Source of the DNA: a virus
DNA: 39,843 nucleotides
IMG/VR virus record: IMGVR_UViG_3300033141_005354
Coordinates: 1-39,843 of that record
Reading direction: 5' to 3' (one strand)
In this document: positions 2,842 to 39,843 of the stretch, piece by piece
How positions within the stretch are numbered: position 1 is the stretch's first letter
Layout: the number at the start of each line of letters is the position of its first letter
The notes under the pieces: model-generated
Told to the model about the DNA's origin: nothing
What the model saw: only the letters and a program-made list of their open reading frames with translations
Databases searched by the model: none
Made by a program: the position numbers and the translations under genes

Positions 2842-3758
2842 CCGGCGCTGGCGGTTTTATAGGACACCACTTGGCGCGATACCTTAAAAATAAGGGATAC
2901 TGGGTTCGGGGAGTTGATATAAAAGAACCAGAATTTTCAAACAAAAACGAAATGGACGAATTCTTAAAAATTGATTTAAGAAACCCAGAAAACTGCCTAA
3001 AAGCGGCAAATGGAGTTGACGATGTATACAATTTAGCCGCAAATATGGGCGGCATAGGATTTATAACATTTCATAAATCAGATGTTCTTTCGGACAATGT
3101 TTTAATAAATACCAATATGGCTCTGGCTTGTAAGGAAAACGGGGTTAAGAGAGCATTTTATTCAAGTTCCGCCTGTGTGTATCCAATATCAAAACAAGTA
3201 AATCCGAATATAACAGCATTGAAAGAAGAAGACGCCTATCCAGCAGAACCAGACAACGAATATGGCTGGGAAAAGCTATTCTCGGAAAGATTATGGGCTT
3301 CATTTAATAAGTTTTTTGAAGTAAGGATAGCAAGATTTCATAACATTTACGGAGAAGAAGGGACATTTGAGGGCGGAAGAGAGAAAGCTCCAGCGGCTCT
3401 TTGCAGAAAAATAGCAAAAGGAGAAGAGGTGGAAATATGGGGAGACGGCAGGCAAACAAGGTCTTTCTGCTATATAGATGATTGCGTGGAAGGCGTATAC
3501 AGGTTAATGAACTCTGATTTTAGGGAGCCGCTAAACATAGGTTCAGACAGATTGGTTGCGATAGACGAGTTGGCGAATATAATAGCTAAAATAGCTGGCA
3601 AAAAAATAACAATAAGGCACAATACAGATAAACCGCAGGGCGTCAGGGGAAGAAATTCCGATAATACTTTATGTAAAAAGGTTCTTAACTGGCAGCCGCA
3701 GATACCATTAGAAAAAGGTCTTTCAAGGACATATAATTGGATAAAACAACAGGTATAA
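2823..3758 (+). CDS. GDP-mannose 3,5-epimerase-like NAD-dependent epimerase
   Basis: The 311-aa protein is an extended SDR enzyme. It has the NAD-binding GAGGFIG at residues 8-14, the NMGGIGFI segment, SSSACVYP containing the family's catalytic Cys, YGWEK with the YxxxK pair, RFHNIYGEEGTFEGGREKAPAA with the second catalytic Lys, and WGDGRQTRSFCYIDDCVEGV. These match plant GDP-mannose 3,5-epimerase closely, so the likely reaction is GDP-D-mannose to GDP-L-galactose (or gulose). Length is a little short of the plant enzyme. It overlaps the upstream GT75-like gene by 19 nt and would supply an activated sugar to the neighbouring transferases. Confidence 0.88.
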   Translation: MRKVCITGAGGFIGHHLARYLKNKGYWVRGVDIKEPEFSNKNEMDEFLKIDLRNPENCLKAANGVDDVYNLAANMGGIGFITFHKSDVLSDNVLINTNMALACKENGVKRAFYSSSACVYPISKQVNPNITALKEEDAYPAEPDNEYGWEKLFSERLWASFNKFFEVRIARFHNIYGEEGTFEGGREKAPAALCRKIAKGEEVEIWGDGRQTRSFCYIDDCVEGVYRLMNSDFREPLNIGSDRLVAIDELANIIAKIAGKKITIRHNTDKPQGVRGRNSDNTLCKKVLNWQPQIPLEKGLSRTYNWIKQQV

Positions 3759-3762
3759 AAAC

Positions 3763-4194
3763 TTGGGCAAGAAATATCGGTATAAACCTTGGAAAAAAAG
3801 AAACAAAGTAGCCGTGTCTGGATACTTTTTATGGCTGCATATCGGGCATATAGAGTATTTTAGGCAAGCCAGCAAACTGGGAAGAGTTATAGCTATTGTA
3901 AATAACGACACGCAGCAGATATTAAAATACGGCAAAATTATAGTTCCGTTGGAAGAAAGGTTAAAAGTAATTCAAAGCATTCGCTATGTGGACAAGGCGA
4001 TACCCAGCATAGACAAAGACAGAACGGTATGCAAAACGCTTGAAATGCTAAAACCAGACATATTCGCCAACGGGGGCGACAGAGACAACAAAAATGTTCC
4101 AGAAAAAGATATTTGCGACAAATGTTTAATTAAAATGGTTTACGGGCTTGGAGACAAAGTCCAATCAACAAGCTGGCTATTCAAAAAAATATGA
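3763..4194 (+). CDS. Cytidylyltransferase-like nucleotidyltransferase (HxGH family)
   Basis: The 143-aa protein has VAVSGYFLWLHIGHIEYF near residue 18, where LHIGH is the HxGH nucleotide-binding motif of the TagD/RfaE/ECT family. It is followed by IVNNDTQQ, PLEERLKVI, the repeated aspartates of SIDKDRTVC, and PDIFANGGDRD. Such enzymes join CMP or AMP to a phospho-sugar or phospho-alcohol. The exact substrate cannot be told. The best start is TTG at 3763, 4 nt after the upstream stop; no Shine-Dalgarno is visible. The stop overlaps the next ATG (ATGA), so coupling is likely. It fits the nucleotide-sugar role of the block. Confidence 0.75.
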   Translation: MGKKYRYKPWKKRNKVAVSGYFLWLHIGHIEYFRQASKLGRVIAIVNNDTQQILKYGKIIVPLEERLKVIQSIRYVDKAIPSIDKDRTVCKTLEMLKPDIFANGGDRDNKNVPEKDICDKCLIKMVYGLGDKVQSTSWLFKKI

Positions 4195-4862
4195 AGGGAT
4201 TAATAATAGGAGCGGGCGAAATAGGGCAAGCGTTATATAAAGTTTTGCGCAACTCGCACGAAACATATATAAGAGACAAGTTAAATATAGATTTAAAGGA
4301 TATAGAAATAATACATATCTGTTTTCCTTATTCAAACAAGTTTGTCGGGATAGTCAAGAAATACCAGAAACAATACAATCCGAAATATACGGTAATTCAC
4401 AGCACAGTTCCAGTCGGCACATCAAGAAAATGCGGAGCAGTCCACAGCCCAGTCAGGGGAATGCACCCGCACCTTGAAAGCGGAATAAGAACTTTTGTAA
4501 AGTTTGTCGGCGGCAAAGACGCAGATGTTATAGCCGAGTATTTTAGAAGGGCGGGATTAAAAGTCCAAATATGTCGGAAATCGGAAACAACGGAGCTGGC
4601 TAAAATACTATCCACGACAAGATACGGAATAGATATTGAGGTTTGCAAGGAGATTGAGAGATTGTGCGGCAGATATGATGTCCCGTTTTCAGAAGCGTAT
4701 ACGCTTTGGACGGAAACATACAATAAGGGCTACCAGAAGCTTAATCGCCCAGAATACACAAGACCCATTTTACAGCCGATACAAGGAAAAATTTTAGGAC
4801 ATTGCGTGTTGCCCAATTTAAAACTAATTAAAACAAAACTCACTCGGTGGGTAAAAAATTAA
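4191..4862 (+). CDS. Rossmann-fold dehydrogenase-like protein (nucleotide-sugar dehydrogenase/6PGDH-like N-domain)
   Basis: The 223-aa protein begins with MKGLIIGAGEIGQAL, a GxGxxG dinucleotide-binding loop at residues 7-12. IIHICFPYS and VIHSTVPVGTSR then resemble the NAD-binding and substrate-facing strands of UDP-glucose/GDP-mannose dehydrogenases, and TTELAKILSTTRYG resembles their central helix. It is much shorter than a full dehydrogenase (about 400 aa) and lacks an obvious UDP-binding C domain. It may be a minimal enzyme or act only on a small substrate. It overlaps the upstream stop by 4 nt and closes the sugar block. Confidence 0.6.
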   Translation: MKGLIIGAGEIGQALYKVLRNSHETYIRDKLNIDLKDIEIIHICFPYSNKFVGIVKKYQKQYNPKYTVIHSTVPVGTSRKCGAVHSPVRGMHPHLESGIRTFVKFVGGKDADVIAEYFRRAGLKVQICRKSETTELAKILSTTRYGIDIEVCKEIERLCGRYDVPFSEAYTLWTETYNKGYQKLNRPEYTRPILQPIQGKILGHCVLPNLKLIKTKLTRWVKN

Positions 4863-4875
4863 AGGGTTCAGCATT

Positions 4876-5145
4876 ATGTTAAAAGATGAAAATAAAAAAG
4901 CTATATTACTGGAATTGATAGCCAGAACGGAAGGCAGGATATTTACGGCTGAAATTGAAGAAAGGTATTTAAATAGAAAAATACTTGCCGGTACTTCAAA
5001 AGAAAAATGGCAAAGGGTATTAGCCGGCGTCCAACAACAAAGAAAATCAGACCAAGAAAGGTTGGATTTCTATAATGAAGTATTAAAAGAATATGACCAT
5101 ATCCGAATTCACGAAAATAAGGAAACTGATAAGGATACTGCTTAA
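4876..5145 (+). CDS. Hypothetical charged protein before the collagen-like fiber
   Basis: The 89-aa protein is strongly charged and predicted helical; no known family is recognised. Lys/Glu-rich helices fill residues 1-80, with [16 protein letters not shown] in the middle. It starts with ATG at 4876 after AGGGTTCAGCATT, with no clear ribosome site. The last 53 nt overlap the start of the collagen-like fiber gene in another frame, so the two are probably co-translated. It may be a chaperone or an attachment piece for the fiber; that is inference from position only. Confidence 0.7.
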
Positions 5146-8100
5146 AAAAGCCGAGGAAGAAGCCCTTAAAGGAGGGGAGATTTTATCAGAGCGGGACAAA
5201 AATAAAATTAAAGCTGAAATAATAAAAGAGGCAGGTTTCACATTAGCGGAATACGACAGATTTGAGATAGAGCGGAAGGCAAAAAGAAGAAAAACTTTAA
5301 GGGGAGAAAAAGGCGAAAAAGGAGACAGGGGACCGCAAGGTCCGCCGGGACCGCCGGGACCCCGTGGTCCGAAAGGAGAAAAGGGCGACAGAGGACCAAG
5401 GGGAGAAAGGGGACCGCAGGGACCGAAGGGCGAACCGGGAAAAGACGCAGACCAGTCCAGAATAGACGAAACCATAGATAATGTAAAGTGGCAAATAGAA
5501 GAGGACATTAAAAACTTAAAAGAAGAGCTTCCAGACCCCAAAGACCTTAAAACCCTAACCGACGGCTCAAACGCTGATAAGCTCCATACCCATAATATAA
5601 AAAATGTGGTTCAGCAAGTTATTCGGGGAGGCGGAGCGGCGCAGGACTGGGTGGAACAGCATTTTTATACAAAAGACGAGATAGACAGCTTGGTAGGAAC
5701 TGGCGGCGGCGTTTGGGGCTCTATCACGGGCAATCTTTCAGACCAGACTGATTTACAAGCCGAATTGGACGCTTTACTGAAATTAGACCAGACATCGCCG
5801 CAAACAATTACAAACGGAATTCCTCTTTTAAATACAACCCCGAGCGGAAGCGCCGATATTAAGAGCTTGGTAAACAAGGAATATGTTGATTTCGCCGTAA
5901 CTTCTCTCGGAGCGAGCTATTATATGTATGACGAAGACGACGCCACGGGATACAAGACCTGTTACCTTAATCCTTCGGCAGACGCAGAGACATACATAGA
6001 GGCGGCAGATTTGACGGATGACGCATATATCGGTGGCTGGATTTCGGCATCGGGAGAAGCACCCTCAAAACTATTAAAGGGAATATATAATTGGTATATT
6101 ACATTAGAAAAAACAACTGGCACAAAGGATTTAAGAGTTTATTGGAAATTAATTGAGAGAAAGTCGGGCGGTTCAGAAACAGTTATCGCCACAAGCTCAA
6201 ATTCAAACATTATTACTGATAAAGCGTCTTACCTTATTCCTCTACAATTGGAAGAAGACTATATTCTTGAGGCGGGAAGCAGAATTGTGGGAAAGCTTTA
6301 CGCAGATGTATCGGGAAGCGGAAATGCCCCAACCGTTAGGATATACTATCAGGGAGACATAAGTTCAAGGTGGGAGATACCAGCAAATTCAGAGATTTTT
6401 CAAAACATTTTTGTCCCTTATGACGGAGCGAAAAAAAATGTTGATTTGGGAGATAAAAACTTAACCACAACGGGAGATATAACGGCTGGAAACCTAAACA
6501 TTTCCAACTGGGATACAGCTTACGGGTGGGGCGACCACTCGGCGGAGGGTTATTTAAAGGATATTACTGGTGAAAGCATAGGAGATTTATCAGATGTGGA
6601 CTTAACGGATATTGCCAATGGCAAAATACTAAAATATAATTCTACTTCTGGAAAATGGGAATGCGAAACTGAAAGCGGCGGCGGAGCTACCCAATTATCA
6701 GATTTGTCTGATGTAAATACCGCAACCCCAACAGCGGGAAATGTTTTAAGAGCCGACGGGGTTGATTGGGAATCTACCACTCTTTCCCATTCGGATTTGT
6801 CTGACGTTAATTCTGACGACCACCACGCAAGGTATGCTTTGACCGAAGATTTATCTTCAAATGAAATAACCCAACTGCAAAACATTGATTCGGTTACTAT
6901 CAGCAATACCCAATGGGGATATCTTGGAGCTATGACCGCACAGCCGTTAGAGGATTTGTCGGGATTAACAACAGATGATTTAAGCGAAGGAAGTTCAAAT
7001 AAATACTATTCAAACGCCTTGGTTGATTCTCATTTATCGGGCGGGACAGGAATAAGCTATTCTTCGGGAACTATCAGCTTGTCTCATTTAGGGTTTGAAA
7101 GTTTAACAGACCCAGGTGCGGATAGAATACCTTTTTGGAACGATACAGCTGGAACTTTTGAGTGGAAAGATTTTTCTAACTGGGACACTGCCTATTCTTG
7201 GGGCGACCACTCAATCGCAGGATATTTTGTAAAGGGAACTGACTCCATAGACGAGGCGAGCGATGTGGACACGACAACAGATACGCCGACGAAGAACGAG
7301 GTTTTGAAATGGAATGGAAGCAAATGGGTTCCAGCGTCTTATGATTACAGTTTTGTTTTCTCAATAGCGTCTTTCAGCGACGGAGAAACAACAACTCAAT
7401 TGATTGGTTCGGGAGTATGGAGGGCAAACGGAACTATGAGTTATTCCGCAACATATAATAATGGACCGCCGACAAACGCTGATGTCAAAATGTCAATAAA
7501 CGGCGGAGCGTATAATTCTGTGGGAAGTATGGCTTCGCCAGATTACGAAAGCGGGACAAACAATCAGGACATTAATTATCCCGCAAGCAAAGACCAGTAT
7601 TTAAGATTTAGATTAGAGGCGACAGACGGGACCGATAACGATACAAGATACGAAGGTGCGATTTATTTCAGAAATTACTTATACTGGGGCGTTTCCGCTA
7701 AGAATTCTGGATTTACCGAAGCAGATATCGAGGGGCTGTCTGGAAGCCAGTTAACAAACGACCATACCCAATCAAAAAGCATAAATGCGGGAAGCGGGGA
7801 ATATCTGGTTTGGGCTTGCCCAGCGAGTTATACTAACTTGCCTACGGGAACGGATTATGAGACAGACGGCGGCGGGACAGGATTTGTCTTTAAGGGAATG
7901 ACTTGTGCGTTTCAGACAAAGGAAACGGTAAGCGTAACAAACTCTGCGGGTTATACAGAGGATTACGAAGTTTATGCTTCTACACTGCCTAACTTGGGAA
8001 GCGGCACTTTAACCACTTATACTTCCCGACAAGCGATAAATAAAATTTATTACGGAGTTACCACAAAAACAAGCGGATATACGGAAAGCGATGTGGAAAA

Positions 8101-22473: not shown

Positions 22474-22501
22474 TTGACAGGGTTGCTTGGTTTGTTATAA
22501 T
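22474..22501 (+). promoter_or_regulatory. Strong sigma70-like promoter before the replication gene
   Basis: TTGACA at 22474-22479 and TATAAT at 22496-22501 with a 16-bp spacer, and TGT as the extended -10 immediately before TATAAT. This is the best promoter in the window. It would drive the early region starting with the small ORF at 22524 and the initiator at 22647. Confidence 0.85.
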
Positions 22502-22523: not shown

Positions 22524-22634
22524 ATGAACCACGAAATCGTTGGACAAAATTTAAAAATCGTTAAAAAATTTATTAATTCCAAAGGGAGTAGAATTTGGCT
22601 TCCAACGATGCCAGTGGGTTCTACTCCCTTTTGA
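22524..22634 (+). CDS. Possible 36-aa leader peptide
   Basis: A short frame starts MNHEIVGQNLKIVKKFINSK and ends GSTPF with TGA at 22632-22634, exactly at the end of the hairpin (22581-22631). Translation would run through the hairpin. It may be a leader peptide that controls read-through into the initiator gene, or may be chance. Confidence 0.35.
   Translation: MNHEIVGQNLKIVKKFINSKGSRIWLPTMPVGSTPF
22581..22631 (+). promoter_or_regulatory. Perfect 13-bp hairpin between promoter and initiator gene
   Basis: AAAGGGAGTAGAA (22581-22593) pairs perfectly with TTCTACTCCCTTT (22619-22631). An inner 5-bp stem (TTGGC/GCCAG) extends the structure. Only four T follow, so it may be a weak terminator or attenuator rather than a full stop. 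It lies between the promoter and ATG 22647. Confidence 0.7.
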
Positions 22635-22646
22635 GTTCGTAAAACT

Positions 22647-23408
22647 ATGGAACAACAAACATTATTCAAAGTAAGAGATAAAAGAAATAAAGGTTGGTTT
22701 TGGGTTGAAAATGATTATTTTAATGGTTTTGGAAAGATTTTGGGGGCGAAAGCAATAGCTGTATATGTTTCTCTTTGCCGCCACGCTGATAACGAACAGA
22801 AATGTTTTCCTGCCCAAAAGACAATTGCCGAAGAAACTAAATTGGGAGAAAGAACGGTAAGAAATATTATCAGAGAGCTTGAAAAATATAAAATTATTGA
22901 AACAACTAAAGAACGAAACTCCCGAGGGCAATGGCTTAATAATGTTTATTGGTTATTAGATAAAAGTGAATGGATATATCCACCAGAGGCAACCAGTGCC
23001 GATGGTAAGCCAGAGGCAAAAAACGACATATCCAGAGGCAAAAAACGACATATCCAGAGGCAACCAGTGCCGCTTAACAATACTAATAGGAACAATACTA
23101 ATAATAATATTATATTACATACAAAACAAAGTTTTGATGACCTTAATTCATTAATTTATTTATTTAAAAATGTTAATCCTTCTTATAAACAACTATTTAA
23201 AAGAAAAACAGAACGAAATGCTTTGGAACGCCTTATTAAGGAGCACGGCGTAGATAAAATTACTAAAATTATTAAAATACTTCCTAAGAGCAACCAAATT
23301 AAATATGCCCCAATTATTACTACGCCCATTCAATTAGAAAATAAACTCGGTGTTTTATTAGCTTTTTTTAAACAAGAAAGCGGTAAAAGCCGAAAAATCA
23401 AATTATGA
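22647..23408 (+). CDS. Phage replication initiator, lambda O-like organisation (HTH_36 domain)
   Basis: The 253-aa protein has an N-terminal winged-helix region (residues 32-92: LGAKAIAVYVSLCRHADN, PAQKTIAEETKLGERTVRNI, IRELEKYKIIETTKER), typical of phage O-like or DnaD-like initiators. The linker (113-142) is coded by a DNA repeat array (22983-23072), followed by an A/T-rich stretch and a basic C-terminal domain. Iterons within the initiator gene followed by A/T-rich DNA is the organisation of lambda ori in gene O. It probably binds these iterons and recruits host helicase. The stop overlaps the next ATG. Confidence 0.75.
   Translation: MEQQTLFKVRDKRNKGWFWVENDYFNGFGKILGAKAIAVYVSLCRHADNEQKCFPAQKTIAEETKLGERTVRNIIRELEKYKIIETTKERNSRGQWLNNVYWLLDKSEWIYPPEATSADGKPEAKNDISRGKKRHIQRQPVPLNNTNRNNTNNNIILHTKQSFDDLNSLIYLFKNVNPSYKQLFKRKTERNALERLIKEHGVDKITKIIKILPKSNQIKYAPIITTPIQLENKLGVLLAFFKQESGKSRKIKL
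22983..23072 (+). repeat. Four iterons (candidate replication origin)
   Basis: Four copies of a CCAGAGGCA core begin at 22983, 23010, 23032 and 23054. The spacing between the last three is exactly 22 bp, two turns of the helix. The outer two copies share CCAGAGGCAACCAGTGCCG, the inner two share CCAGAGGCAAAAAACGACAT. As 22 is not a multiple of 3, the repeats are in different reading frames, so selection must be on DNA. A/T-rich DNA follows at 23073-23175. Confidence 0.85.
23073..23175. other. A/T-rich tract next to iterons (possible DNA unwinding element)
   Basis: About 80% A/T over 100 bp, including many AATA and TTAATTTA steps, directly after the four iterons and inside the initiator gene. 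This matches the layout expected of a melting region in an iteron origin. Confidence 0.55.
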
Positions 23409-23692
23409 GAGAGATTTCTAAAAATTTAATGTGTATTTGTTTAAGAAACGGGATAGAAATTTGGGTGGAAAAAGAAAAAGCCCAACGCTTGATTGATTTA
23501 TTGGGAACAACAAAAACTAAATTTGTGGAAATAGGAAATGAAATAATTAATTCGGTAGATGTATTGGGAGTTTTTAATGCCGCAACTATGGCTGATTTAA
23601 AAATGAGAAAACAAGGTAAATGGCAATGTAAATGGGGGACTTGGCATTATAATGGGGATACTTGTGAGTGTTGGAGATTAGAAAAAAACTAA
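23405..23692 (+). CDS. Hypothetical protein downstream of the initiator
   Basis: The 95-aa protein starts with ATG overlapping the initiator stop (ATGA). Its C-terminus has several Cys/Trp residues (WQCKWGTWHYNGDTCECW), and the N-terminus is beta-like (NLMCICLRNGIEIWVEKEKA). No known family. In position it resembles a lambda P-type partner gene, but its small size argues against a helicase loader. Confidence 0.6.
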   Translation: MREISKNLMCICLRNGIEIWVEKEKAQRLIDLLGTTKTKFVEIGNEIINSVDVLGVFNAATMADLKMRKQGKWQCKWGTWHYNGDTCECWRLEKN

Positions 23693-23722: not shown

Positions 23723-23750
23723 TTGACAAAGCCCTTGGCTATGCTAAAAT
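23723..23750 (+). promoter_or_regulatory. Promoter upstream of the small membrane peptide
   Basis: TTGACA (23723-23728), 16-bp spacer, TGC extended -10, then TAAAAT (23745-23750). It lies 20 nt before ATG 23771 and would transcribe the small early genes that follow. Confidence 0.75.
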
Positions 23751-28286: not shown

Positions 28287-29234
28287 ATGAAGAAAGAAAA
28301 GAAAATTGAAAACCAAATTCATTCCTTTCCTAAAATATTTCATATTGGAGAAAGTTTTATAAGCAATCTTTTTGAAGGAAGGGTGGAAATAAGCGAAAAA
28401 ATAGATGGAAGCCAATGGGGCTTTGGAATTACCAATGAGGGAGAAATAGTTTATAGAAGTAAGGGACAAGAACTGACTTATAAAGATGTTCCAAAGATGT
28501 TTCAAAAAGCAAAGAAACAAGTAGAACGATTACAGCCCATTCTGAAAAAAAAATTTAGAGATGTGTTCTTTTATTGTGAATTTTTAGAACAACCCTGTCA
28601 CAATATTCTGAAATATAAGAGAATACCCAAAAATCATTTATATCTTTTTGGGGTAATGGAAGGAAGAAATTTTGTGAGTGATTATAAGAAACTTTGGGAA
28701 TACGCCGACTTATTGGAAATAGAAAGAGTAAATATTCTTGATTATAAAGAAATTAAGGAGGTTGCTAAGTTAGAGGAATATTTAAAAGAAGAAAGTATTT
28801 TGGGGAATGAGAAAATAGAGGGGATTGTTGTTAAAAATTATAATCAACCAAGCGGAAAAGGAAGTTTTATTATTCCGATTTCAATGGGGAAATATGTAAA
28901 AGAAAATTTCAAGGAACGGCTCAAAAAAGAGTGGAAAGGTAAATTTACAAGCAGGGGAAAATTAGAGCTTTTGATTGAAAGCTTTCACAGTGAGGCAAGA
29001 TGGAAAAAAGCGATTCAACATCTTAAAGAAAGGGAAGAATTGGAAAATGCCCCACGAGATATAGGAAAACTAATGAAGGAAATAGAAAAAGATTTAATAG
29101 AAGAGGAAAAGGAGAATATTAAAAATGAATTATATAAGATTTTTATTGGAGATATTATAAGAAAAGCCAGAGGGGGTTTTCCAGAATGGTATAAAAAACA
29201 ATTATTAAAAAGAAGTTTTAGGGGGAATAAATAA
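28287..29234 (+). CDS. RNA ligase (Rnl2/RNA_ligase family)
   Basis: The 315-aa protein has nucleotidyltransferase motif I EKIDGSQWGF with Lys38, Asp40 and Gly41 (K-x-D-G), a YRSKGQ element near 56-61, motif III-like FFYCEFLE (94-101), motif IV EGIVVKN (178-184) and a motif V-like KYVKENFKE (202-210). Order and spacing match the RNA_ligase fold, in which Lys38 would carry AMP. The C-terminal helical region (215-310) is longer than the catalytic core. It starts with the shared MKKEKK cassette. It may repair host tRNA or mRNA breaks made as antiphage defence. Confidence 0.8.
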   Translation: MKKEKKIENQIHSFPKIFHIGESFISNLFEGRVEISEKIDGSQWGFGITNEGEIVYRSKGQELTYKDVPKMFQKAKKQVERLQPILKKKFRDVFFYCEFLEQPCHNILKYKRIPKNHLYLFGVMEGRNFVSDYKKLWEYADLLEIERVNILDYKEIKEVAKLEEYLKEESILGNEKIEGIVVKNYNQPSGKGSFIIPISMGKYVKENFKERLKKEWKGKFTSRGKLELLIESFHSEARWKKAIQHLKEREELENAPRDIGKLMKEIEKDLIEEEKENIKNELYKIFIGDIIRKARGGFPEWYKKQLLKRSFRGNK

Positions 29235-32092: not shown

Positions 32093-32180
32093 GGGGGGGA
32101 GTGAGGCGAGTTGGGGAGAAGGGATTTAGGTATATATCCTCCCCACAGAAAAAACCCAAATTTGACAACTTTTGATAAGA

Positions 32181-37108: not shown

Positions 37109-37612
37109 TTATTGTCCGCCTTGATAAGAATTAGCTCTTTTACACTCTAACCACCAGTTATCTATCAGAATCCTGTCCTGTTTTGTATATTTTTTACGAA
37201 GACCCTTCTTAATACGCCAGTCAAGAAAGTTATACAAAACAGAAACAGCCCTAACTTTTTTGTAGGGTATGGAAGTATCTAAAAAGATTTTACATAGTTT
37301 GTGGCATATTATCACATTTGTGCAAGTCCAAACATAACCCTTTTTAGTATTTCCTATTTTGTAAGGATTTGGTAGGTGACCGAGATAGTTATGGTCTGAA
37401 CGAACCCAAATACTGCCACCATATCTATTTTTAATCCACTTAAGAACTGATAAATCATCATCTCTTAAGCCAATAGATATTTGTGGACGGTATAGATAAT
37501 ATGATGTTGGACCATCTGATTTCTTGTATGTTTTATGGTATCTGACTAAAGAGGCAGAACCATCAGCATAAAAGAAGCCACGAAATTCAGCGTCATTTAT
37601 AGAGTGTTTCAT
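37109..37612 (-). CDS. LAGLIDADG homing endonuclease encoded antisense in the intron
   Basis: The 167-aa protein has the LAGLIDADG-type motif FRGFFYADGSASL at residues 10-22, followed by YRPQISIGLRDDDLSVLKWI, YGGSIWVRSD and a helical DNA-contact region LDWRIKKGLRKKYTKQDR. It has one motif, so it would act as a homodimer. It lies wholly in the intron after the P7/S element but on the opposite strand to the capsid gene. A minus-strand TTGACA at 37670-37665 may drive it. It would cut intron-less capsid alleles to spread the intron. Confidence 0.85.
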   Translation of the reverse strand: MKHSINDAEFRGFFYADGSASLVRYHKTYKKSDGPTSYYLYRPQISIGLRDDDLSVLKWIKNRYGGSIWVRSDHNYLGHLPNPYKIGNTKKGYVWTCTNVIICHKLCKIFLDTSIPYKKVRAVSVLYNFLDWRIKKGLRKKYTKQDRILIDNWWLECKRANSYQGGQ

Positions 37613-38864: not shown

Positions 38865-39843
38865 AGTCCACAGATACCTTAAAAACGCCTTAGAACGGCT
38901 CTCAGAGCTCACAGACGGCATTGTAATAGCTTGCAACGCCTCCGATAAAGACACCAGAAGCTATTTGGCGAAAATAAAGAAGGCAAAGGTTTATGATTTT
39001 TCGGAAAGAGAACGCTATGAGTGGGGCAGAAAGCAGAATATAATAAAGCAAAAGCTGTTTTATCTTATGGAAAGGGAAAGCGTGGAAGATGCGTTTTGGG
39101 TGGTCTGTATAGATTCAGATGAAGTATTGGATAAGCGGCTTACGAGGGAAAAACTTGAAGAGCTGACAACCAGAGACGAGATAGCGTATACCTTTTATTG
39201 CGTTCAGTTATGGGACAGCGAAAAGCAGATGAGGGTTGACGGCGGTTGGGGAAATTTCAGGAACGTAAGATTTTATAAATACATTAAAAACGCAGACCAT
39301 TCGTTTCAGAATTCTCCCCTTCATTGCGGATTAGCTCCAATATACGCCTATAAATGGGCGGCAGACGCCGAATATCTGTTCAAGCATTACGGCTATATGA
39401 AGTTAGAGGACAGAAAAAGGAAAGTCCAAAGGTATAACAAGTATGACCCGAACGGAAGGTATTTCAGCAAGAAGTGGTATAACAGTATACTCGGCAAGCC
39501 GACGATTAAGCCGTTTGATGAAGACAAACTGGGCGAGAAACTAAAATACAAGCCCAAAAAACCATTAAAAGACAAATACATATTAAAAGAAATGAAGCAG
39601 AAAATATATTTTATAAAAAATAAATACGGGAAAGTGTTTTCTGTGTCCGAGTCGCAAATTGGAGACCACAAAAGAAAGGGCATTGAAATTATAGGAGAGA
39701 GAGACATAACGGAAATCGGTAAATTCGTTGATGTGAAAGAACTTCCAAAGGAAGAAGATAAGAAAGAAAATCTCGGAAAAATCTCTTATACTTGTCCGAT
39801 ATGCGGTTTTGAAGCAAAAACAAAAGCGGGCTTGTCGGCGCAC
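38809..39843 (+). CDS. Glycosyltransferase family 2 with C-terminal C2H2 zinc finger (continues at position 1)
   Basis: A TTG start at 38809 opens a 350-aa protein that runs past the right end and continues to 132; an alternative ATA start at 38833 is less likely. It begins LKKTQKTKIWGFITVGEGEV and has VIACNASDKD, a YEWGRKQNII region and CIDSDEVLD, whose DSDE would bind the metal and nucleotide-sugar. GWGNFRNVRFYKY is the typical middle. It ends in a C2H2 zinc finger (C329, C332, H345, H349). A Zn finger fused to a GT2 enzyme is unusual. It opens the glycan block that continues at 145. Confidence 0.82.
   Translation, partial: MKKTQKTKIWGFITVGEGEVHRYLKNALERLSELTDGIVIACNASDKDTRSYLAKIKKAKVYDFSERERYEWGRKQNIIKQKLFYLMERESVEDAFWVVCIDSDEVLDKRLTREKLEELTTRDEIAYTFYCVQLWDSEKQMRVDGGWGNFRNVRFYKYIKNADHSFQNSPLHCGLAPIYAYKWAADAEYLFKHYGYMKLEDRKRKVQRYNKYDPNGRYFSKKWYNSILGKPTIKPFDEDKLGEKLKYKPKKPLKDKYILKEMKQKIYFIKNKYGKVFSVSESQIGDHKRKGIEIIGERDITEIGKFVDVKELPKEEDKKENLGKISYTCPICGFEAKTKAGLSAH
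39730..39843. repeat. Terminal direct repeat, right copy (circular overlap)
   Basis: Identical to 1-114. See the entry at position 1. The glycosyltransferase frame crosses without a break, so one copy should be removed when the genome is closed. Confidence 0.95.

Follow-up and report, generated by a model that had tools for sequence, protein, structure and literature searches.

A group of four direct repeats (iterons) lying inside the gene at 22647-23408 is very probably the replication origin of this phage, and the product of the same gene is in all probability its initiator. The reading as an iteron origin is strongly supported by the statistics of the repeats, the A/T minimum of the genome, the family of the protein, a disordered linker within it and a survey of relatives. 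Of what defines this general kind of origin, the traits that a sequence can show, namely repeats that are not due to chance, a product belonging to a DNA-binding initiator family and an adjoining A/T-rich element, were all found. A phage that is known only from its sequence gains a probable origin, a probable initiator and a probable replication strategy. The architecture as such is already known from lambda O/ori, SPP1 gp38/oriL and pSK41 Rep, and the more interesting by-products are a spacing rule and layout seen across the class and a second repeat of 12/15 bp. The window (the whole stretch of DNA that was analysed, 39,843 nt) ends with the same 114 bases with which it begins and therefore represents a closed circular unit of 39,729 bp, the genome of a tailed phage, which has a mean GC content of 39%. 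The features in and around the gene are:

22474-22501, + strand: candidate sigma-70 promoter (TTGACA-N16-TATAAT, extended -10) upstream of the initiator operon, from consensus match only
22569-22643, + strand: leader hairpin, an inverted repeat with the core stem AAAGGGAGTAGAA/TTCTACTCCCTTT, between the promoter candidate and the initiator start
22647-23408, + strand: initiator gene, 253 aa; winged helix, disordered linker and helical C-terminal domain (HTH_36, phrog_186, AlphaFold2)
22740-22898, + strand: HTH_36 winged-helix DNA-binding domain, aa 32-84, the predicted reader of the iterons
22983-23001, + strand: iteron 1, CCAGAGGCAACCAGTGCCG (repeat search)
23010-23031, + strand: iteron 2, CCAGAGGCAAAAAACGACATAT (repeat search)
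23032-23053, + strand: iteron 3, CCAGAGGCAAAAAACGACATAT (repeat search)
23054-23072, + strand: iteron 4, CCAGAGGCAACCAGTGCCG (repeat search)
23074-23223, + strand: predicted DNA unwinding element, 18.7% GC, the lowest-GC 150 bp of the closed genome
23076-23105, + strand: tandem 15-mers AACAATACTAATAGG/AACAATACTAATAAT, which open the unwinding element and encode NNTNRNNTN
23091-23381, + strand: helical C-terminal domain, aa 149-245 (AlphaFold2 helices, modest confidence)
23405-23692, + strand: 95-aa gene, overlapping the initiator stop, in the position of lambda P

The repeat array and the protein encoded around it

Only four matches of the 10-mer CCAGAGGCAA exist in the window, all of them within the gene 22647-23408, at an expectation of 0.08 in shuffles and a maximum of one in any shuffle. 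The copies of CCAGAGGCA start at 22983, 23010, 23032 and 23054, which gives spacings of 27, 22, and 22 bp and places the iterons at codons 113-142. Iterons 1 and 4 share 19 nt and iterons 2 and 3 share 22 nt without a mismatch, and iterons 2-4 contain a perfect self-match of 32 nt at a shift of 22. Among 2000 synonymous-codon shuffles of the gene, which preserve the protein sequence and the codon use, there was none in which the longest repeat exceeded 14 nt or the copy number exceeded two, compared to the observed 32 nt and four copies, and a chance repeat is excluded by this result. Since no shuffle came near the observed array and the reading frames of the iterons differ, the repetition is a property of the DNA and does not simply follow from the encoded protein. 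RNA folding of the array is unremarkable (z -1.6).

The initial annotation had described four copies in a gene with an N-terminal HTH domain, the last three of them 22 bp apart and followed by A/T-rich DNA, and this description was confirmed by exact matches, by HTH_36 and by a GC scan of the genome. It had also argued that the 22-bp period makes the repeats encode unrelated peptides and that they must be selected as DNA. The selection as DNA is well supported by the shuffles, whereas the argument from the peptides applies to iterons 3 and 4, which lie in other frames (SRGKKRH and QRQPVP), but not to iterons 1 and 2, which are 27 bp apart, share one frame and both read PEA. The outer and inner copies do differ in their right halves, as had been noticed, a difference that was proposed to set the order of binding and may do so: iterons 1 and 4 form a GGCA-N5-TGCC dyad, and iterons 2 and 3 carry an A-tract and have no dyad. 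An inverted-repeat scan with arms of at least 6 found none within any iteron.

The N-terminal part of the protein matches HTH_36 (Pfam, E 5e-16). The best PHROG is phrog_186, a DnaD-like helicase loader (E 2e-17, aligned over aa 8-221). Replication initiation proteins come next, and then the O-like PHROGs 678, 345, and 391 at E 1e-9 to 1e-11. In the AlphaFold2 model, which was built from 18 aligned sequences, the winged helix comprises approximately aa 31-110 (pLDDT >90), and aa 123-159 are disordered (pLDDT <50). Structure matches of the winged helix include 4pt7, 4pql, and 5kbj (“Structure of initiator,” Rep-DNA) as well as the N-terminal domain of DnaD (2v79) at Z 7.9-8.6; since transcription factors tie at the same Z, these matches support the fold, not the function. 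A phmmer search of the PDB with the initiator found nothing, and the RepA_N domain (PF06970) has no Pfam match in it at E 0.1. Given the location of the iterons at codons 113-142, what the origin DNA encodes is for the most part the linker that joins the two domains. As the protein made from the iterons and from the first part of the unwinding element is disordered, selection at the DNA level costs the protein little.

The predicted unwinding element, the proposed mechanism and its alternatives

Directly 3' of the array lies the A/T-richest DNA of the genome, in which the lowest-GC 100 bp (15% GC) begin at 23099. From this arrangement we infer how binding, melting, helicase recruitment and the direction of replication may be set. 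The winged-helix N-terminal domain would bind the four CCAGAGGCAA iterons. Three of them would lie on one face of the helix, since 22 bp correspond to roughly two turns. The nucleoprotein complex formed in this way would strain and open the A/T-rich DNA at 23074-23223, and the C-terminal helical domain, which presumably recruits a helicase or a helicase loader, would bring in the replicative helicase of the host or its loader. A scan of the phage proteins, which did not extend to every small ORF, recognised no replicative helicase, primase, or polymerase, and this suggests reliance on the host replisome.

The promoter candidate at 22474-22501 agrees with the consensus at 12 of 12 positions and has a TG preceding the -10 element. 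The leader hairpin downstream of it is very stable, has a perfect stem of 13 bp and an RNA fold of -38.1 kcal/mol (z -3.9), overlaps a 36-codon ORF at 22524-22634 and may be an attenuator or another leader control of the initiator. The 95-aa gene at 23405-23692 is without a Pfam or PHROG match, and just beyond it, at 23723-23750, there is a second strong promoter-like site (TTGACA-N16-TAAAAT, extended -10). Elsewhere in the genome, an RNA ligase gene (28287-29234; PF09414, E 5e-13; phrog_548) lies within an unusually A/T-rich stretch, and a weak LAGLIDADG endonuclease match (E 0.006) at 37109-37612 on the - strand, one of the few minus-strand gene candidates, points to a possible homing element. 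The GC skew, for which the initial annotation had expected a minimum at the array, is positive almost throughout, and after detrending it has its minimum at 31.2 kb and its maximum at 5.5 kb with modest amplitude. Although the minimum is thus not at the array, nearly all genes are on the + strand, and the skew therefore neither supports nor refutes the array as origin.

Other explanations of the repeats are all improbable to different degrees. The repeats could be operators by which the same protein controls its own expression or incompatibility, with replication starting elsewhere, as plasmid iteron arrays often have control roles in general and as a promoter of perfect consensus is found upstream at 22474. 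However, the array lies about 480 bp downstream of this promoter, within the gene, and abuts the A/T-richest DNA of the genome, and there is no CCAGAGGCAA at the promoter, so that we consider this very unlikely. Similarly low is the probability that the initiator acts also on a second origin elsewhere and that the array is one of two: SPP1 provides the precedent, where gp38 binds not only oriL, which lies in gene 38, but also a separate oriR (PMC6316719), but no second CCAGAGGCAA cluster is present in the genome of this phage.

Less probable again is that the array is a recent and functionless product of replication slippage in a tolerant linker. The identity of iterons 2 and 3 over their full length and the disorder that AlphaFold2 predicts for the linker are in line with slippage, but the separated iteron 1 matches iteron 4 over 19 nt while the intervening DNA differs, a duplication of 22 bp shifts the frame, and in most homologues iteron sequences that are unrelated to those of the window occur with the same spacing in the same place. 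Least credible of all is a packaging (pac) or partition site that lies in the gene by chance; such sites can generally be short direct repeats inside phage genes, but none of the results obtained here points to one, this gene is a replication initiator and is far from the terminase, which is located at 32172, no ParB-like protein was found among the proteins scanned, and an A/T-rich neighbour is not expected for a site of this kind. A replication origin read by its own initiator is by far the preferred explanation of the array.

In-gene repeats among relatives

A close relative carrying the gene was not found; the protein scan yielded one distant homologue in viral contigs (L001) and none in genomes. 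The nearest phage in the terminase scans, L006, has a terminase that is 66-67% identical and is a fragment without the initiator gene. Its terminase large subunit (3512-5905) contains an in-frame, intein-like insertion relative to the terminase of the window. A pattern scan for two copies of CCAGAGGCA at a distance of 22 bp matched three unrelated loci only, hence the iteron array of the window was not seen in other viral contigs. L001 has, near its homologous initiator gene and at the end of the contig, an array of 12-bp direct repeats, GGCCAGTGTTAG (3982-4057).

Homologues were collected more widely with the pattern C[FY]PxQxT[IL]A of a conserved turn, which was scanned in viral contigs and bacterial genomes. 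Together with L001 and the C. difficile phage AR1074-1 (L007), the hits amount to 49 non-redundant homologues besides the window. The set is selected by the motif and includes related phages, so percentages describe this sample only. In 38 of the 49 homologues the best repeat within the gene surpasses each of 40 synonymous shuffles, compared to six of 131 control ORFs (220-350 aa, same contigs) that beat 30 shuffles. The significant repeats centre about 54-106 aa past the CFP motif. Layouts like that of the window are 28/22/22 (L047), 31/22/22 (L065), 36/23/23 (L055), and 34/23/23 (L100, L094), and a further layout is 25/23/23 (L118, L080). When spacings were pooled and compared to synonymous shuffles, 22 bp occurred in 16 genes vs. 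1.8 expected and 23 bp in 15 vs. 2.0, with further peaks at 44-46 bp, and the peaks are absent from the N-terminal part of the same genes. In the comparison with related phages, which the initial annotation had suggested, arrays of the same spacing thus recur in most homologues, but 11 of the 49 have no significant repeat, with two clear groups, the L016 type and L069 (L048/L053 type), so that an in-gene origin does not follow from the fold by itself. A description of the HTH_36 layout as a class was not found in the open-access literature; subscription journals were outside this search, and a prior description is possible. Going by the survey, origins could be called in many uncultured phages from this layout within the gene.

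Shifts of 12 and 15 bp are in excess among the homologues as well (14 and 15 genes vs. 4.8 and 4.6 expected), which stems partly from in-frame tandem repeats located in the A/T-rich part, 3' of the iterons, such as AACCGTTAAGAG in L066, AACCAGTAAGAG in L100, AACAAGACTAATATT in L007, and AACAATACTAATAGG in the window. Tandem repeats of this type (AACCNGTAANNG or AACAANACTAATNNN) start the A/T-rich part in many homologues (L007, L066, L027, L100, L094, L117). They may belong to the melting signal, and they may also have a cause at the protein level, the amino-acid repeats being in frame. A k-mer common to the melting regions was rejected: 7-mers such as CCAGTAA reach z values of up to 5.6 vs. 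3.7 in shuffles, with many of them from related phages, and 6-mers were within the range of the shuffles.

Among the 33 genes with iteron-like arrays, the similarity of the iterons correlates with the similarity of the winged helices (Spearman 0.25, Mantel r 0.24, p 0.001), a correlation that linkage or common descent of the N-terminal half could produce alone, since the array and the winged-helix part lie side by side in the gene; no such relation exists with the similarity of the C-terminal parts (rho -0.02). For example, L080, L090, L118, L100, and L077 have a common GCCGTGTC core and winged-helix similarity scores of 0.68-0.85, whereas their C-terminal parts are mostly unrelated. These comparisons are only suggestive of an iteron sequence that tracks the winged helix and not the C-terminal domain. 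They suggest that changes in recognition can be studied by pairing the sequences of iterons and winged helices. A tentative and rather doubtful extension is that phage initiators of the HTH_36 type are built as modular cassettes: a winged helix would move together with its own iterons and be swapped onto unrelated C-terminal helicase-recruiting domains. The cassettes would share a layout of one separated iteron, two or three iterons at 22-23 bp, and then in-frame 12/15-bp tandem repeats in the melting region as a second class-wide origin signal. If this were true, the pairs of winged helices and iterons would make recognition readable as a code, and the origins of uncultured phages could be found from sequence alone.

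Comparison with known in-gene origins

The origin of lambda is similar in its working layout. The annotated lambda iterons inside O begin at 39034, 39054, 39078, and 39101, at spacings of 20, 24, and 23 and in codons 117-145; the phage described here likewise has four mid-gene direct repeats at nearly the same codons (113-142), at spacings of 27, 22, and 22. In both cases a DNA-binding N-terminal part precedes the repeats and an A/T-rich stretch follows them (PMC7466680). The lambda iterons carry an A-tract, as do the inner copies here, and it is the inner iterons 2 and 3 that lambda O binds most efficiently (PMC7466680). In contrast, the lambda iterons are 18-bp palindromes, whereas a dyad is present here in iterons 1 and 4 only, and downstream no P gene is recognisable by Pfam or PHROG. 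BLASTP of the initiator against lambda O gave no similarity. Therefore, of the lambda-type origin proposed in the initial annotation, the layout of four iterons in the middle of the gene followed by A/T-rich DNA stands, but membership of the O family is not established, and since the similarity is indirect (the best PHROG is another one), the inner iterons have no palindromic form, and P is not recognised downstream, the protein should not be filed in that family.

In SPP1, gp38 binds the direct repeats of oriL inside gene 38, beside an A/T-rich element (PMC6316719), and by this description the likeness lies in repeats and an A/T-rich unwinding element inside the own initiator gene. SPP1 differs by its second origin, the separate oriR that gp38 also binds (PMC6316719), and by a phage-encoded helicase loader and helicase, none of which was recognised among the proteins scanned here. 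The Rep protein of TP901-1 is annotated as a DnaD-like helicase loader as well, and its gene has a repeat at aa 103-113 and, after it, the 60 bp of highest A/T content; however, this repeat is spaced by 15 bp and is not significant in the same test (16 of 200 shuffles), and BLASTP revealed no similarity of note between the two proteins. The Rep of pSK41, one of the RepA_N plasmids, belongs to a plasmid and not to a phage, and the initiator has no RepA_N Pfam match. The N-terminal domain of pSK41 Rep binds four Rep boxes in the centre of rep, the middle part encoded by the ori is a linker, and both its N- and C-terminal domains resemble DnaD (PMC5703833). The phage initiator resembles it in having four mid-gene repeats over a linker and a winged helix that matches 4pt7, 4pql, and 5kbj.
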